Assembly (NCBI GenBank): GCA_937919825.1
Contig: CALFPA010000122.1
Coordinates: forward strand, 1-59,172
Length of the DNA stretch: 59,172 bases
DNA from: an uncultured Spartobacteria bacterium
Lineage (GTDB): Bacteria; Verrucomicrobiota; Verrucomicrobiia; Chthoniobacterales; Terrimicrobiaceae
Direction of reading: 5' to 3'
Shown: positions 42,097-56,793 of the stretch, one piece after another
Position numbering within the stretch: position 1 is the stretch's first letter
Layout of the letters: each line of letters opens with the position of its first letter
Translations under genes and position numbers: made by a program
Notes under the pieces: generated by a model
Told to the model about the DNA's origin: nothing
Database searches by the model: none
What the model saw: only the letters and a program-made list of their open reading frames with translations

Positions 42097-42684
42097 GTGA
42101 AAACAAACGCTCTTCTACTTTCCCTGATCCTCTCCTTATCTTGTGGAAAAGCCTTCGCCTCGACCGCCGCTGCGGAGAATTTTCTCAAAAAATCCGTCGG
42201 TGAGGTCGTGGAGGCCGCTAAAAATGCCACTGATGCCCCGGCGCTCGCCTCCGCCGTCCGTCCAATTCTTCTTAAAACCATCAGCTTCGACGCCATGACC
42301 CGCCGTTCCGTGGGGCCGGGTTGGCGGCAGTTCACCGACGCCGAACAAAAGGACGCCATCGGCTTTTTTACCACGCTGATCATTCGCACCTATTCCGCAA
42401 AGTTTACCCCGGGCGAACTCCCCGATGTCGTCTACAAAGCCGCGACGGAAACCGCTCCCGGTCGAGTCGAGGTCGCCACCTCCACGCTGTATAAAGGCAG
42501 CCGCTACGAAGTCACCTATCGACTCGAGCAGCCCGATGGCAAAGGTTGGCGCGTCACGGATGTGGTGATCGAAGGCGTCAGCATGATCGCGAATTACCGA
42601 GGCCAGCTCGACGCGCAGTTCAAATCCGGCGGCGCGGGGGCAGTCCTCGGCTCACTCCAAAAATCCATCAATTCCTCAAAATGA
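42097..42684 (+). CDS. mlaC: Periplasmic phospholipid-binding protein MlaC
   Basis: 195 residues, GTG start, signal peptide with LLLSLILSLSCGKAFAS. The MlaC/Ttg2 domain shows FLKKSVGEVVEAAKN, ISFDAMTRRSVGPGWRQFTDAEQKDAIGFFTTLIIRTYSAKF and YEVTYRLEQPDGKGWRVTDVVIEGVSMIANYRGQ. It shuttles phospholipid between MlaA at the outer membrane and MlaFED. The stop overlaps the mlaA start (ATGA). Confidence 0.95.
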   Translation: MKTNALLLSLILSLSCGKAFASTAAAENFLKKSVGEVVEAAKNATDAPALASAVRPILLKTISFDAMTRRSVGPGWRQFTDAEQKDAIGFFTTLIIRTYSAKFTPGELPDVVYKAATETAPGRVEVATSTLYKGSRYEVTYRLEQPDGKGWRVTDVVIEGVSMIANYRGQLDAQFKSGGAGAVLGSLQKSINSSK

Positions 42685-43787
42685 CACGCCCCCAAACTTC
42701 TCGCTCAGTTGTTACGCTTTTCCTCGGTGTGATCGTGAACGTCCTCACTCCCGAGGCCTTCGCTGAGTCGAGCCGGATTTACAGCTACACCACACAGGGC
42801 GCGGTGCCGGTGGACTTGAAAAAGGGCCGCCTCCCGAAAAACTCCTACGAGACCTACTACCTCGAGAGCGCCATACCCCAATCCTCTCGACCTGTTGCCA
42901 CGCCCAAGCCAAAAGCCACACCGAAACCCAAAGCCACGCCCAAGCCAAAAGCCACGCCGAAGCCCAAGGCGACACCGATTCCAAAGGCCACGCCGAAGCC
43001 CACGGCGCAACCAACCCCTCAGTCGACCTCAACACCCAAGCCCGCCGCGATTACGGTCACCAAAAAATCTTCGCCCACACCGGTTGCCAAGCCTCCCAAA
43101 TCCTCGCCGAAACCCGCGGCTCCTCCCGTGGATGACTTGGATGACTTGGATGAGTATGGCGACACCGTGAAGATCGCGGACCCCATCGAACCCGTGAACC
43201 GCGGAATGTTTTGGCTCAACCACCAACTCTACACCTACATCGCTCGGCCGATTTCGAAGGTCTACCGCACCATCCTGCCGAAGCCCGTCCGCACGGCCGT
43301 TCACAATGTCTACGACAACGCGGAGTATCCTGTCCGCGTGGTGAATCACTTGCTCCAAGGAAAACCCGGGCGCGCGGATCTCGAGACCCGCAAATTCCTT
43401 CTCAACTCCACCGCGGGCGTGGGCGGCATCTTCAAGCCCTCGGATCGTTTCCCCTCGCTCGCCGAGGTTCCCGACGCGGACACCGGCCAAACTTTTGCCA
43501 AATGGGGTATCGGCCATGGAGCTTATGTCGTTCTTCCCGTGATCGGCCCGCGCAGTGTGCGCGACACCGTGGGCCTGGCCGGGGATGTCGCCCTCAATCC
43601 CCTCACTTGGGTGCCGATCGGCGGAGTGGCCCAAGCCATCTCGATCCCGCTTGCGACCCCCAATACCGTTCGCAATGTGGACAGCCGGCTCAACGCCTAC
43701 GACGCCGCCACCGAGAACGCTGTCGATCCCTACCTCTCCCTCCGAGGCTCCTACATCCAGTATCGCCAAAAAGCTGCATCCAAGTAG
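42681..43787 (+). CDS. mlaA: MlaA (VacJ) with signal peptidase I-type leader and Pro/Lys/Thr-rich linker
   Basis: 368 residues. The C-terminal ~230 residues are the MlaA/VacJ fold that sits in the outer membrane and removes surface-exposed phospholipids: DPIEPVNRGMFWLNHQLYTYIARPISKVYR, RVVNHLLQGKPGRADLETRKFLLNSTAGVGGIF, FAKWGIGHGAYVVLPVIGPRSVRDT. MlaA is normally a lipoprotein, but here the leader (VVTLFLGVIVNVLTPEAFAES) has no lipobox Cys and looks cleaved at AFA-ES. Between leader and MlaA domain lies a ~110-residue linker with TPKPKA repeats, long enough to span or bind the periplasmic wall. Last gene of the mla operon. Confidence 0.92.
   Translation: MTRPQTSRSVVTLFLGVIVNVLTPEAFAESSRIYSYTTQGAVPVDLKKGRLPKNSYETYYLESAIPQSSRPVATPKPKATPKPKATPKPKATPKPKATPIPKATPKPTAQPTPQSTSTPKPAAITVTKKSSPTPVAKPPKSSPKPAAPPVDDLDDLDEYGDTVKIADPIEPVNRGMFWLNHQLYTYIARPISKVYRTILPKPVRTAVHNVYDNAEYPVRVVNHLLQGKPGRADLETRKFLLNSTAGVGGIFKPSDRFPSLAEVPDADTGQTFAKWGIGHGAYVVLPVIGPRSVRDTVGLAGDVALNPLTWVPIGGVAQAISIPLATPNTVRNVDSRLNAYDAATENAVDPYLSLRGSYIQYRQKAASK
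42898..43008 (+). repeat. Coding 18-bp tandem repeat (TPKPKA) in mlaA
   Basis: Imperfect tandem copies of an 18-base unit encode repeated TPKPKA, drifting to TPIPKA and TPKPTA at the right end. It is a coding microsatellite-like tract likely to vary in copy number. A similar SPKPSPKA tract occurs in the TonB-like gene at the window end. Confidence 0.8.
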
Positions 43788-43875: not shown

Positions 43876-45522
43876 ATGAAAACTCTCGTCATCGGCCACC
43901 GCAATCCAGACATGGACTCGATCGTGGCTGCCCTCGGCTATGCGGAATTCAAGCGCGCCACCGGAATGGAAAATGCCATTGCTGCCCGCTGTGGAAATAC
44001 CAACGCCCGCATTGATTTTGCCCTCCGGAAGTTCGGGGTCGAGGCGCCGGTGTTCGTTCCCGATGTCTACCCCCGCGTGGAGGATGTGATGCAGCGGAAT
44101 GTCGTGAGCATCCACCGCGACGCTCCGATTTATCAAGCGATGACGCGCTTTAGCGAAGCCAAGTTCCGCGGGCTTCCGGTGGTCGATGACTCGCGCTCCT
44201 GCATCGGCCTCCTCTCGGCCTTCAAGCTCGGCAAATACTTGTTCCCGCCGCTCGAAAATCTCTCCTCGTGCCGTATTGTCGAGGCATCCATCTCGCACAT
44301 CCGAGATGCCATCCGTGGCATGGTGGTCACGGGCAAGGAGGATCCCAAGATCAAGCCCCGCATGCTTGTTGTGGCGGCCATGCACACCGCTTCATTCCAA
44401 AAACGCCTTGAGCAGCTTGACATCCCCTCCACTGTCCTGATCGTTGGAGACCGTTGGAATATTCAAGAAATGTCCATCCTGGCCGGTGTGCCGGTGATCA
44501 TCATCACGAATAATTTCTCCCCCACGGATCGCGCTCTTGCCCTCGCGCAGGAGCATGGCACCACGCTGCTCTCCTCGCCGCACGACACCGCCACCACCGT
44601 CATGCTCTCGCGGGCGGCCGTGACGGCCGGACAAATGCTCTCGCCGGAATTCATTCACCTCAATGGCGACGCCACCCTGTCCCAGACCAGAATGGATTTG
44701 GCCATGCATTCGCAGTTTGCCTTTCCTGTTTTGGGATCGCAGGGCCGATTGCAGGGCATCATCTCCAAGAGCGACCTGCTGAGGCCGGTTCCGCGCCAAC
44801 TCATCCTCGTCGATCACAACGAAATCACCCAGGCGGTTGCGGGCGCCGACGAGGTGTCGATCATTGAAATTCTCGACCACCATCGCATCGGCGTGGCGCC
44901 GACCCACCAGCCGATCCTTTTCATGAACCGCCCGGTCGGATCGACCAGCACGATCGTGGCCGATTGTTTCCGCCAGGCGCGGCTCCCGATTCCGAAACCC
45001 ATTGCCGGCCTGCTGATGTGCGGACTGATTTCGGACACGCTGAATCTCACCTCGCCGACCACGACCTCTGTGGATCGGGATATCATGGCAGAGCTATCCA
45101 AGATTTGCGGCGTGAAGCCCGCCGATCTTGCCTCCGAGATTTTCAGCGTTGGCTCACCCTTGATGACCCTATCGGCGAAGGATGTCATCACCGCCGACTG
45201 CAAGGAATACGAGGAGCATGGCATCAAGTTCAGCGTGTCCCAGATCGAGGAAATCAGCTTCGCCTCGTTCCAGAAACAGCGCGAGACCCTGATCGAGGAA
45301 TTGGAAAAATACCGTGCCTCGCATGGGTATCTTTTCTCCACGCTCCTCATCACCGATGTGAATACGCAGAACTCGATCCTCATCGTCCGTGGATCGGAGA
45401 GTTTCACGCGCCTCATCGATTTTCCCGAGGATGGAAGCCACGCGTGGAAACTCGACGGTGTCGTTTCGCGGAAAAAACAACTCCTGCCTTATCTCACCGC
45501 CATCCTGGCCCGCATGGCCTGA
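43876..45522 (+). CDS. Manganese-dependent inorganic pyrophosphatase with CBS/DRTGG regulatory insert
   Basis: Family II (DHH) pyrophosphatase hydrolysing PPi to phosphate, 548 residues. Catalytic residues: GHRNPDMDS (residues 7-15), EILDHHRIG (DHH) and the C-terminal DHHA2 domain with SRKKQL near the end. The domain is split by a regulatory insert: CBS motif VEDVMQRNVVSIHRDAPIYQAM, a DRTGG-like domain (LIVGDRWNIQEMSILAGVPVIIIT), and a second CBS half (MDLAMHSQFAFPVLGSQGRLQGIISKSDLL). CBS-PPases are controlled by adenine nucleotides and diadenosine polyphosphates. Convergent with the giant ABC gene (6 bases between stops). Confidence 0.93.
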   Translation: MKTLVIGHRNPDMDSIVAALGYAEFKRATGMENAIAARCGNTNARIDFALRKFGVEAPVFVPDVYPRVEDVMQRNVVSIHRDAPIYQAMTRFSEAKFRGLPVVDDSRSCIGLLSAFKLGKYLFPPLENLSSCRIVEASISHIRDAIRGMVVTGKEDPKIKPRMLVVAAMHTASFQKRLEQLDIPSTVLIVGDRWNIQEMSILAGVPVIIITNNFSPTDRALALAQEHGTTLLSSPHDTATTVMLSRAAVTAGQMLSPEFIHLNGDATLSQTRMDLAMHSQFAFPVLGSQGRLQGIISKSDLLRPVPRQLILVDHNEITQAVAGADEVSIIEILDHHRIGVAPTHQPILFMNRPVGSTSTIVADCFRQARLPIPKPIAGLLMCGLISDTLNLTSPTTTSVDRDIMAELSKICGVKPADLASEIFSVGSPLMTLSAKDVITADCKEYEEHGIKFSVSQIEEISFASFQKQRETLIEELEKYRASHGYLFSTLLITDVNTQNSILIVRGSESFTRLIDFPEDGSHAWKLDGVVSRKKQLLPYLTAILARMA

Positions 45523-45528
45523 TTTTTG

Positions 45529-48500
45529 TCAGGAATTCCGCACCCGGATTTGGGAGCGCAGGATCAAGTAGAGAACGAAAAAGAGGAAGAGGGTCGAGGC
45601 GATGAGGACGAGCGTGTTGAACCACAGAATCCCGGCGCGAAGACCGAGGTATTCTTTCATCGGTCCAAAGAAGACATTCAGGTGTCGGTCCTCGCGATAG
45701 TCGCTTTGCTCCATCTCGGCTTTGGACACGAGGTCGGTGACTTTTTGATTCACATAGAGCTGCTCGGCACTCACGCCGGTGCCGAAGTTGTCGAATTTCG
45801 AGGGTTCGAAACGCGCGCCGGCAATGACACCATCGATCCGCCGGAAGGCCTTGTTGATGCCTTCAGGCCGGGAGGCTTCGAGCCCGGAAAGAACAGCGAG
45901 GGCCTCTTTCAAATCATCCAGGCGATCGGCTTGATCGGGGGTGAGTTTTTTGGCGCGGATGATTTCGTTGATGAGAGATTGGATTTTTTCCTGGCGAATG
46001 GTGAGGGGGTTGAGCTTCGCCTGGGCATAGACGAGGGCCTCGTAGGACCAACGCGTGGGCATGATCTCGCAAATGAGCGGCACCTGCAGGTCGCTTCGCG
46101 GCGGCATCGAGCTTTCCGGATGGCGGATGGCCCACTGCTGGATGACATGGATGAAATCCAGATTGCGGTTCATCTCTTCGTATTTGATGAGCGCGCCGCT
46201 GAGAATGATCTGCGGAATCAACACCACAGGGATGATGAGGATGCCGGTCTTGCTTTGAGCGACGAGCGCGGAAATGACGAGCCCGATCGCGGCCCCGTTC
46301 GCTGCCGTGAGGAACATCGCCGTGAAGACGATCCAGAATCCATCGCGCAGGGAGAGCAGGGCGTTTCCAATGAGGGCAAAGAGCGCGCATTGAATGATCG
46401 CGAAGAAGGCCAGCGACAGAACCTTCGCAGTGACATAGAAGCCGAGGTTCACATTCAAATTCCGCTCGCGCATGAGCACCGCACGGTCATGGATAATGTC
46501 GTCCACGCTATTGGTGAGGCCGAGGAACATCGCCACGACGAGCGCGAGGAAGAGGTAGGTCGGAATGTGAAACGCCGAGGCGAAATCGTAAACGGCGCTC
46601 TCGGAATATCGGAGGACCATGCCGGTGAGCAGCGCCAGGAGCGGGGCCTCGAGGACTGTGGTGAGTAGGTTTGCGCGGTTGCGGAGTTTGCTCAGAAAAG
46701 CGCGGCGGAGCAGGACACCGAATTGGCGGAATTGCTCGCCCATTCGGAGGCGCTCGCCTTTGCGGGATTCGGGCAGGGGTTCCTGGGGTTGAGGCGCCGC
46801 CTCGCGAGGTGTGGGGGGTTGGCGGACTTCCTTGAGCAAGCGGTAGGCTTCGTATTTGTCGCGCCAGTAGTCAGGCGAGAAGCGCCTCGCGGGGATGAGT
46901 TGGCCTCGGTTGTTTTCCTCCAAAATAATGTCGCCGCCGAGGTCGCGCAGCGGGGTCTCGAGCACATCAAAAATGAACTCCGGCCGGGTCGTGCCGCAGA
47001 CTTCGCACCCGCCTGGGGAGGATTTGCCGGCCTGCCGGTTTTCCTCCGCCGCGAAATATTGGAGGGTTTCCAGAGGAGTGCCGAAAAAGACAAGCTTCCC
47101 GCCGCGGTCGAGCACCATGGCTTTGTGGAACATCTGGAAAATCCGTGAGGTCGGCTGGTGGATCGTCACGAGCACGATCTTGTTGTGCGACATGTCCCGG
47201 ATGATCTCCATGATGTGCTCGGAGTCCTTCGAGCTGAGGCCGCTCGTCGGCTCGTCAAAAAGATAAATGTCGGCCGAGCTGACCATATCGAGGCCGATGT
47301 TCAGCCGCTTGCGCTCGCCGCCGCTCAGGATTTTCTGGGCGGTCGAGCCGACGACGGAGCTCCGGCGCTCATTGAGCCCAAGCTCGGCGAGTTTGCCATC
47401 GATGCGGCGGATGCGCTCGCGCCGACCCAGATGCGGAGCGCGGATGGCGGCGGCGAAGTTGAGGTTTTCCTCGATCGTCAGGTGCTCATCGAACGCATCG
47501 TATTGCGGGATATAGGTGACATATTTTCTGAGCGATTCGTGGTTGGGGTAAAGAGAGAGGTCATTGAAAAGAACCTCGCCACGGATTGGTTGGAATTGAC
47601 CGGAAAGCGCGCGCAGGAGTGTGCTTTTGCCGCAACCGCTGGCTCCCATCACGCAAACCATCTCGCCGCGCTGGACCGTGAACGACACGCCATCCATCGC
47701 CACCGTGCCGCTGGCGAATTTACACTCGAGGTCATGCGCCTCGAGGGTTCGCACCACATTTTTTTCCTCCTCGATCAGCCGCTCGGAAAAGTCACAGCGC
47801 AAGATTTGGCTGGCATCCACGCGGATCGTATCGCCGTCCGCGAGAGGCGCGGAATTCCGCACCGGGTTGCCACGCACAAGGATCGGTCGGTCGGTGCGCA
47901 GGACCTCGACCGAGCCTTCCTTGCGATCATAGTCGCACTTGATTTTGAGAAGCACATCGCCGCCGGGGCCAGGGGATAAAAGAATGTCGTCCTCCTCGAG
48001 CAGGTTGGGGTTGTTCGAGACGAGGTATTCGCTTTTTGACGCCTTGAGAGCGAAACGACCGCCGTAGGATCTCGCCCGGAGGCGCAGGTGGTCGAGGTCG
48101 AGTTCGCTGTCGTCGTGAAAGACGATTTTGTCCTCCAGCGTGGCTGTCACTTCACGCCCCTCGGAGAGTCGCACGCCGCGAAGGACCGCATCGACATCGC
48201 GCAGGGCCTTCACTCGCACGCGGAGCCCGAAAGCCACTTGCAGGCAGGAATCCCGAGTGCGGTCCTTGCCGAGAGTGACCTCATCATCCTCGTTCACCGC
48301 GACGAAAATCTCGGGGAGGGTCACATTTTTCTTCGCGTTGAAATAGAAAACCAAGTCGGCGTAGCTGAGCACGACATCATCGGCCAGGACGCGCTGGCCG
48401 GTATAAAGACGGGCGAAACTCCCCGGCTCCAGCGCCCGCCCTTGAACGATCAGCTGACGGCCGCTGAGATTTTTTACGATCACGAGATCGCCGTAGCGGT

Positions 48501-49134
48501 AGGCGTGGAGCCGCTCCTCAGCCGTGAATCCTGGCATGACGACATCCGAGCGCTCTTCGTGGCCGAAGCTTACCATCTCGAGGGGCGAGGCACCCGTGCT
48601 GTAGATCGAGCTGTCGGTTTTTTCATCCGCATTGAGTTGGTAAACGATGTCGATCGCCTGAGTCGCCATGCCGAGTCGCGACATGAAAGCGTAGTAGGCC
48701 ACGACCGCTTCGTTTTTCAGGCCGGCGCGGGAGATCAGGTCGTAGAGCTGCACGCCGAGAAGGATCTTCCGCTCGTCGCTCAACTGACCGGAGAGTTTTT
48801 GGGCCATCCCGTCGAGATCCTGCCGCTGATTCAGCGCCCGCTGGAAAAGGTCGCGAAGCTCGGAGTAAACCGCGTCCGGATAATCGTAGCGCAGGAAGCC
48901 GAGGCTGGAGTCGATCTCCTCCTCGATCAGGTCGCCGTCCACTTGGGAAAACGCCGCGAGCACTTGGATGAGCGTCGGCAAAAGATTCGGCCCCTCCGTG
49001 ATGGTGCGCGGCTTCCGCTGGATCCGGCGGAGAGCGTGGCGGAAAAGCGATTGGCTCCGCGCAGCGAGGCGCAAAATAGCCTCGAGTCGGGATTGAATCC
49101 CGCTTGGCGGTCGAGGAGAGTTGACAGAGTCCAC
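45529..49134 (-). CDS. Large fusion ABC transporter: TerB-like, FHA-like, ABCG ATPase and ABC2 permease
   Basis: 1201 residues, GTG start. Residues ~50-170 resemble TerB (FSQVDGDLIEEEIDSSLGFL with acidic metal-type residues). Residues ~205-450 are beta-rich and end like an FHA domain (LADGDTIRVD). The ATPase follows: Walker A GASGCGKST (497-505), signature LSGGERKRLNIG, Walker B IYLFDEPTSGLSSKDS, H-loop VLVTIHQPTSR. A short insert carries C-E-V-C-G-T-T. The C-terminal ABC2 domain has six hydrophobic segments and a long soluble loop before the last TM. It is an ABCG-like exporter with an intact ATPase site; the substrate is unknown. The fused cytosolic domains suggest signal-controlled export. 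Confidence 0.88.
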   Translation of the reverse strand: MDSVNSPRPPSGIQSRLEAILRLAARSQSLFRHALRRIQRKPRTITEGPNLLPTLIQVLAAFSQVDGDLIEEEIDSSLGFLRYDYPDAVYSELRDLFQRALNQRQDLDGMAQKLSGQLSDERKILLGVQLYDLISRAGLKNEAVVAYYAFMSRLGMATQAIDIVYQLNADEKTDSSIYSTGASPLEMVSFGHEERSDVVMPGFTAEERLHAYRYGDLVIVKNLSGRQLIVQGRALEPGSFARLYTGQRVLADDVVLSYADLVFYFNAKKNVTLPEIFVAVNEDDEVTLGKDRTRDSCLQVAFGLRVRVKALRDVDAVLRGVRLSEGREVTATLEDKIVFHDDSELDLDHLRLRARSYGGRFALKASKSEYLVSNNPNLLEEDDILLSPGPGGDVLLKIKCDYDRKEGSVEVLRTDRPILVRGNPVRNSAPLADGDTIRVDASQILRCDFSERLIEEEKNVVRTLEAHDLECKFASGTVAMDGVSFTVQRGEMVCVMGASGCGKSTLLRALSGQFQPIRGEVLFNDLSLYPNHESLRKYVTYIPQYDAFDEHLTIEENLNFAAAIRAPHLGRRERIRRIDGKLAELGLNERRSSVVGSTAQKILSGGERKRLNIGLDMVSSADIYLFDEPTSGLSSKDSEHIMEIIRDMSHNKIVLVTIHQPTSRIFQMFHKAMVLDRGGKLVFFGTPLETLQYFAAEENRQAGKSSPGGCEVCGTTRPEFIFDVLETPLRDLGGDIILEENNRGQLIPARRFSPDYWRDKYEAYRLLKEVRQPPTPREAAPQPQEPLPESRKGERLRMGEQFRQFGVLLRRAFLSKLRNRANLLTTVLEAPLLALLTGMVLRYSESAVYDFASAFHIPTYLFLALVVAMFLGLTNSVDDIIHDRAVLMRERNLNVNLGFYVTAKVLSLAFFAIIQCALFALIGNALLSLRDGFWIVFTAMFLTAANGAAIGLVISALVAQSKTGILIIPVVLIPQIILSGALIKYEEMNRNLDFIHVIQQWAIRHPESSMPPRSDLQVPLICEIMPTRWSYEALVYAQAKLNPLTIRQEKIQSLINEIIRAKKLTPDQADRLDDLKEALAVLSGLEASRPEGINKAFRRIDGVIAGARFEPSKFDNFGTGVSAEQLYVNQKVTDLVSKAEMEQSDYREDRHLNVFFGPMKEYLGLRAGILWFNTLVLIASTLFLFFVLYLILRSQIRVRNS

Positions 49135-55506: not shown

Positions 55507-56793
55507 TCAAGCAATCGGAATCCGGGGTCGGCGGAGCACTTTGGCGGCGGTGATGATCAGCAGAATTGCTCCGGCAAAAATGGCGGCAACGAGCCACATG
55601 GCACGCTGGAATATTCTATCGATCGTGGCGTTACTCATTTGCTGAAGCTCTCCTGCGAGCTTCCATGGCGTCGCTTGGGGGTCTTGTGGGGCGCTCATGA
55701 GCAATTGAGCGGCTGCCATCGCGGCATTCAACTCGATGATGGCCTGCCTGGCTTTTTCAAGAGTCTCGGTGGTTTGCGCGGGAGTCCATGGCTCGGCATC
55801 GGAATCCGAACCGACTGACTTAATGCGTTCGTAGGATTCGACCGTGGCACGGGCGTTTTCCACGAGCGGGTGGAGGGCCGGAAGGAGTTCGCGGATGGTC
55901 CTGGACTGGGTGTCTGCGAGGTTTTGAAGATCTTGGGGCAGTGTGTCGATCGAGGCTGCAGCCATTTCAGCGCTCCGGCTGAAGGATTGCAAATTGGGCT
56001 CTGCGCCAACCTGGGCGAGCATGAGGGAGGATTGCATGGTGGCCATGCGAGGCATGCGCTCGATGTAAAACATGAGCCGCTCCCCGGTGTGAAGGGCTTC
56101 CTCGAAATCGCCGACCGTCTTTTGGAATTCCGACAAGAACGGAACGGGGGCGGATTCTCGGGATCTCCCGGCGCGAAGGTCTGCGAGATCACGAAGCCTG
56201 ATTCCCGAGACATAAATGGCTTCTGGGTTCGCCTTCTGCCAATCGCGGATTTTGGAATCAAGTTCCGCGCGTCCCCTTTCACCAATATAATCCACCAGAA
56301 TAGCTCCGATCTGGGCATGCAGGGAATCGTAGGTGGCATTCATTGCACCGAGTTGATCGCCCCAAAAGTCCGAGCCCATTTTCTCGCGGACCATCTGGCG
56401 TCCCAAGCTGACAAAGACATACATGTCCAAAAGGTTGGCGGTTGGGTCGCGACCGGCGGCGATTTGCATGGATGCCGCGCAGAAGAGCACTTTAAATGTT
56501 TCGACGCGCAGGCGCTTGGCTGGATCGGTGTTCTTGCGCAAACACGCGTCCGCATTCTCCCAAATCGCCATGGTGTAGCGATCGGAGAAATCCATCATCT
56601 CCTGCTGGAGAATAAGCGCCCGGCTGTTTTTCGAAGCAGGCTTGCGGGGTTTGCCGGTCAGGAACTCCAGCGGATGCGCGTCGGCCTGCGGTTTGAACAG
56701 ATCGATGGCCCGACTCGGCGAAAGCGGCATCAAAACAAGTAGTGAGGCGACAAGCGCGCTGGCTCGAATCCGTTGTTGCGAGGCGTTTCTCAC
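55507..56793 (-). CDS. Large exported protein with C-terminal membrane anchor, unknown function
   Basis: 428 residues with a Sec signal (IRASALVASLLVLMPLSPSRA) and one C-terminal TM helix (MWLVAAIFAGAILLIITAAKVLRR). The region between is mostly helical with many Ala/Leu/Glu residues, compatible with coiled coils, especially residues 240-390. No catalytic motif recognised. It is 35 bases upstream of the PRC/BON gene, so the two probably form one transcript and a shared envelope function; divergent from a small secreted gene. Confidence 0.75.
   Translation of the reverse strand: MRNASQQRIRASALVASLLVLMPLSPSRAIDLFKPQADAHPLEFLTGKPRKPASKNSRALILQQEMMDFSDRYTMAIWENADACLRKNTDPAKRLRVETFKVLFCAASMQIAAGRDPTANLLDMYVFVSLGRQMVREKMGSDFWGDQLGAMNATYDSLHAQIGAILVDYIGERGRAELDSKIRDWQKANPEAIYVSGIRLRDLADLRAGRSRESAPVPFLSEFQKTVGDFEEALHTGERLMFYIERMPRMATMQSSLMLAQVGAEPNLQSFSRSAEMAAASIDTLPQDLQNLADTQSRTIRELLPALHPLVENARATVESYERIKSVGSDSDAEPWTPAQTTETLEKARQAIIELNAAMAAAQLLMSAPQDPQATPWKLAGELQQMSNATIDRIFQRAMWLVAAIFAGAILLIITAAKVLRRPRIPIA

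Follow-up and report, generated by a model that had tools for sequence, protein, structure and literature searches.

A conserved ABCG-type transporter of Verrucomicrobiota with a TerB-like domain and degenerate FHA-like domains predicted at its N-terminus

The window, i.e., the whole stretch of 59,172 nucleotides that was analysed, carries at positions 45529–49134 a single open reading frame on the minus strand, which starts with GTG at 49134 and encodes a protein of 1201 aa. The initial annotation had placed one giant gene at this position, without stating its strand, and the ORF list agrees with it. Going from the N-terminus to the C-terminus of the protein, the gene and its parts are as follows.

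45529–49134, minus strand: the whole gene, 1201 aa, with the stop codon at 45529–45531 (ORF list, start common to close relatives).
48631–48981, minus strand: predicted TerB-like seven-helix domain, residues about 52–168 (AF2, structural match to 2h5n, hhalign, Pfam in relatives).
48328–48579, minus strand: beta domain 1, a probable degenerate FHA domain, residues about 186–269 (AF2, hhalign).
48067–48312, minus strand: beta domain 2, of similar strand order, residues about 275–356 (AF2; weak in hhalign).
47761–48057, minus strand: beta domain 3, with a predicted FHA fold but without the phosphothreonine-contact residues, residues about 360–458 (VIA, hhalign, residue table, cysteine counts).
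47047–47748, minus strand: ABCG-type nucleotide-binding domain (NBD), residues about 463–696 (Pfam ABC_tran, motif conservation, PDB matches to ABCG and PDR proteins).
46969–47043, minus strand: post-NBD linker with C710-x2-C713 (DNA 46996–47007), followed by the conserved PEFIFDVLETPLRD (cysteine counts, pLDDT, HMM alignment).
46180–46728, minus strand: ABC2 membrane domain up to TM5, residues about 803–985 (PF01061, hydropathy, Foldseek).
45631–46167, minus strand: long helical insert between TM5 and TM6, presumed periplasmic, residues about 990–1168 (hydropathy, AF2 helices).
45541–45615, minus strand: TM6, residues about 1174–1198 (hydropathy).

Relatives of the transporter were found at 80 loci of the genome collection, at 47–99% identity and mostly over their full length; the ABCG-type gene is conserved along its whole length in more than 60 of them, and in a 47-member alignment of the family the mean column identity was 59%. 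The GTG start was identical in close relatives. Since relatives occur at 80 loci and close relatives share the GTG, the frame is a real gene and not a chance ORF. In its own genome the transporter is single-copy, and the remaining matches span the ATPase domain only. Diverged second-copy relatives, L123 and L124 (ORFs of 1117 and 999 aa), were seen in genomes that also carry the main copy; they belong to the wider transporter family.

Of 288 genomes sampled from the phylum, 47 contained a relative of the transporter. The N-terminal module was found in 41 of the 288, only in the transporter protein, and its carriers belong to the same order and to two further families of the class. In six carriers from other families of the phylum, only the transporter part matched at the threshold used, and the four of these six that were inspected had shorter N-termini. 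The search of plasmids gave no relative of the N-terminal module. The transporter is widespread in Chthoniobacterales and Verrucomicrobiales. The family probably also reaches the gut genus Akkermansia. The loci include entries named Akkermansia and Verrucomicrobium, though environmental 'Akkermansia muciniphila' entries may represent misassigned MAGs.

On one side the gene is flanked by a convergent DHH/CBS/DRTGG pyrophosphatase gene and mla genes, and on the other by a divergent sulfite/nitrite reductase gene. Among the 80 loci this order was kept only in the closest, near-identical relative (L007), and neither a general partner gene nor a conserved operon was found across them. In 15 relatives of one Chthoniobacterales lineage, a gene for a metallo-beta-lactamase-fold protein borders the 3' end of the transporter gene or is close to it; the hydrolase is directly downstream at L013 (11578–12387), and also at L017, L020, L022, L025, L079 and others. 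In one other local arrangement, limited to a single lineage, genes for a GAF-SpoIIE phosphatase and a STAS protein stand divergently beside the transporter (L001, 3315–5303; also L002, L003 and L050). Within the window itself, the gene for the DHH/DHHA2 inorganic pyrophosphatase, which carries CBS and DRTGG regulatory domains (43876–45522, plus strand), and the ABC gene are separated at their ends by 6 bases. Upstream of the pyrophosphatase gene, an MlaA-type protein with an N-terminal linker of PKATPKPK repeats (42546–43787, plus strand) closes an mlaEFDCA-like cluster at 40–43.8 kb. Further away, a 428-aa protein without a Pfam match (55507–56793, minus strand) adjoins a PRC-barrel/BON protein.

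With the full-length protein, Pfam returned ABC_tran (6.7e-30) and ABC2_membrane (PF01061, 7.3e-24), both above the cut-offs and in one chain, with the NBD N-terminal to the membrane domain. Walker A, the LSGGERKR signature, Walker B and the H-switch histidine are intact and are kept in nearly all of 66 relatives. TIGR00955 matched residues 477–989 with 218 bits, against its own cut-off of 736, and the closest solved sequence relatives were ABCG and PDR transporters. The full-length AF2 model (pLDDT 76, pTM 0.48) pointed in the same direction: the best 50 Foldseek matches were all ABCG proteins, with E values of 1e-17 to 1e-22. Their TM-scores were low, which is what one expects when a model has several domains of uncertain placement. 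Hydropathy gave transmembrane segments at about 823–983, then about 180 residues without any, and a last segment at 1174–1198; judged from the sequence, this pattern is of the ABCG type with an enlarged TM5–TM6 insert, which, by the topology of ABCG proteins, is presumed to face the periplasm. The ABCG and ABC2 domains named by the initial annotation are thus well founded.

The N-terminus was modelled by AF2 over residues 44–470 with 51 sequences (pLDDT 83.6, pTM 0.75). In the model, seven helices are followed by three beta-rich units, the first two of which are closed by a helix. The helical part aligned with 2h5n at a VIA-align Z of 10.2 over 109 residues. A TerB profile retrieves 2h5n at 1.2e-5, beside 2ou3 and 2jxu; therefore, the match to 2h5n is a match to the TerB fold. 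In support of that, hhalign related the helical domain to TerB with 92% probability. Pfam was less sensitive: with the full-length protein it gave no FHA match and placed TerB under the cut-off (0.019; 15.7–17.7 bits against PF05099, whose gathering score is 24.4). With the N-termini of 51 relatives it matched TerB in 39 (best 6.7e-6) and FHA in 18 (best 7.9e-6). Some homologues do exceed the TerB cut-off; one of them is the diverged relative L123, with 27.8 bits, which is 29% identical to the transporter in an alignment running from TerB to the membrane domain.

When the N-terminal model was used in Foldseek, the matches were almost exclusively FHA domains, with EssC first. VIA-align of model residues of about 311–417 gave Z 10.5 with 1wv3 (EssC), 10.1 with 3gqs and 10.0 with EmbR; domain 3 matched FHA-2 of Rv1747 (6cah) at Z 8.3 and dozens of FHA chains at Z 8–10.5, and its hhalign probability for FHA was 91%. 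Clearly, as modelled, domain 3 has an FHA fold. Domain 1, predicted to have eight strands and a helix, is probably an FHA fold as well (hhalign 51%, P 1.5e-4), whereas the assignment of domain 2 is uncertain (hhalign 7%). PDB profile matches of domain 2 to polyubiquitin were rejected as repeat artefacts, with 2–4 bits per copy. The TerB-like and FHA-like domains suggested by the initial annotation, which a model with neither fold would have refuted, were both recovered by structure prediction.

An FHA fold need not imply phosphothreonine binding, and we compared domain 3 with FHA I of Rv1747, whose phosphothreonine-contact residues are G32, R33, S47, H50 and N69 (PMC5549992). At the positions set by profile alignment, the canonical contact Arg, Ser, His and Asn are absent from domain 3 in 51 of 51 relatives. 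The Gly-Arg position is occupied by S373 (51/51) and N374 (50/51), no Ser-x-x-His was found in residues 387–398 of the 51 relatives, and the Asn-loop position holds R416 in 40 of 51. What is strictly conserved in domain 3 is instead the motif Y370-x2-S373-N374-x-P. A parallel is offered by the FHA domains of EssC, which likewise have no phosphothreonine residues and no identified partner, but are needed to keep the protein stable (PMC4925161). Moreover, no Ser/Thr kinase gene was found in the flanks of the 80 relative loci, some of which lie on short contigs, and no canonical FHA gene was linked to the transporter at these loci except at L054; the genome itself has four kinases of the Hanks type and three matches to canonical FHA, all on other contigs. 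A phospho-switch is disfavoured by the missing contact residues, the EssC parallel and the lack of a kinase gene in the flanks. The initial annotation had suggested that export is controlled by phospho-peptide binding and had named a linked kinase as something to test for; such control is not supported by these results. Docking or stabilisation is a more likely role for the FHA domains than switching by phosphorylation.

The protein resembles several known systems, each in part. Rv1747 of Mycobacterium tuberculosis, a characterised ABC exporter with the order FHA-FHA-NBD-TMD (PMC5549992, PMC3908365), is also a single chain with N-terminal FHA fused to an NBD and a membrane domain, and is thought to export a cell-envelope component. 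However, all phosphothreonine residues are kept in its FHA I, and it is encoded in the same operon as pknF, whereas the Verrucomicrobiota transporter has lost these residues, has no linked kinase and carries an additional TerB-like domain. With the ABCG/White and PDR transporters (ABCG25, ABCG5/G8, Pdr5) it shares the NBD-before-TMD order, PF01061, the post-NBD cysteine segment and the TM5–TM6 insert, but it is prokaryotic, has a 460-residue N-terminal TerB-FHA extension, and its TM5–TM6 insert is much longer. The tandem FHA domains of EssC/YukBA in type VII secretion (1wv3, 5fwh, 9qks), among the best fold matches, are also FHA repeats that lack phosphothreonine residues and sit on the cytosolic side of a membrane ATPase; that ATPase, however, is of the FtsK type, serves protein secretion, has no TerB and is not an ABC exporter. 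Finally, TerB proteins (2jxu, 2ou3, 2h5n) have the helical fold in common with the transporter, which keeps the first D-G-x5-E motif, but they are stand-alone or belong to ter operons, and here the domain is fused to a transporter in a genome without a TerD gene. The view that no characterised example exists thus fails for the fusion of FHA with a half ABC exporter, given Rv1747; of TerB, FHA and ABCG in combination, we likewise found no description in the open-access literature. What is apparently new here is the addition of a TerB-like domain and a degenerate FHA array to the known FHA-ABC exporter fusion.

The explanation that we consider probable for the protein as a whole is an ABCG homodimer exporter with a docking and stabilising TerB-FHA module. 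By analogy with the family, the half-transporter would work as a homodimer and would use ATP to export a molecule related to the envelope, which is probably lipid-like or amphipathic. The cytosolic N-terminus of about 460 residues, with the TerB-like domain and up to three FHA-like beta-sandwiches, would sit beside the NBDs and could act in docking and stabilisation, presumably with a partner protein or a ligand as the thing docked. In its favour, the module was always fused to the transporter in the 288-genome sample. A more specific idea, in which the TerB-FHA module would be a novel type of sensor that gates the ABCG exporter via a non-phosphorylated ligand or partner, with Y370-x2-S373-N374-x-P replacing the phosphate-binding Gly-Arg loop, is unlikely.

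It is doubtful that the N-terminal module takes no part in signalling or docking and only helps the transporter to fold, dimerise or anchor. The need of EssC for FHA domains that lack an identified partner and the lack of generally conserved neighbour genes would fit such a role, but the strict conservation of motifs such as Y370-x2-S373-N374 in the TerB/FHA regions exceeds what a passive spacer needs.

It is also unlikely that the exporter is gated by metal or redox state, with the TerB acidic residues or cysteines (C710/C713, C400, C447) as sensors of metal or thiol. The acidic motif D66-G67-x5-E73 is nearly invariant in the family, as are C400 (65/66 relatives) and C447 (66/66) of domain 3, and C710-x2-C713 has counterparts in distant relatives of the phylum. 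However, the second acidic D-G-x5-E motif of TerB is unrecognisable by eye and looks lost, no above-threshold TerB match and no TerD gene were found in the genome, and C400 and C447 might have no role beyond core packing. The extra C-x2-C noted by the initial annotation does exist as C710/C713, but the control by metal state which was attached to it is not borne out: of 66 relatives, 44 carry the motif and 22 do not, the latter including every one below 50% identity, and no second cysteine pair was found near it in the sequence. It lies in a low-confidence loop (AF2 pLDDT <50), and the HMM alignment pairs it, about one residue out of register, with the 'GYVCPSRQTTADFL' segment of yeast Pdr5; from this alignment, it is best read as a local variant of the ordinary ABCG/PDR post-NBD segment. 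The motif could be ancient, with a later loss in some members of the group. Being far better conserved, C400 and C447 would be the cysteines to test rather than C710 and C713.

The least probable is an exporter under phospho-control like Rv1747, in which a Ser/Thr kinase would act on the transporter or a partner and transport would be switched by FHA binding of the resulting phosphothreonine: the FHA fold on a half ABC exporter, the four Hanks kinases that could act in trans, the genes for a GAF-SpoIIE phosphatase and a STAS protein that some relatives have a short way upstream, and the room that residue inspection alone leaves for phospho-binding by a non-canonical mode are set against contact residues missing in every relative and flanks without a kinase gene.

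The protein represents a conserved family of Verrucomicrobiota transporters that seems not to have been described before. On an ABC exporter, FHA domains that lack the phosphate-recognition residues warn against equating 'FHA' with 'phospho-regulated', and make the transporter a test case for alternative roles of such domains. If the family reaches Akkermansia, its envelope export there would matter to the interaction with the host.
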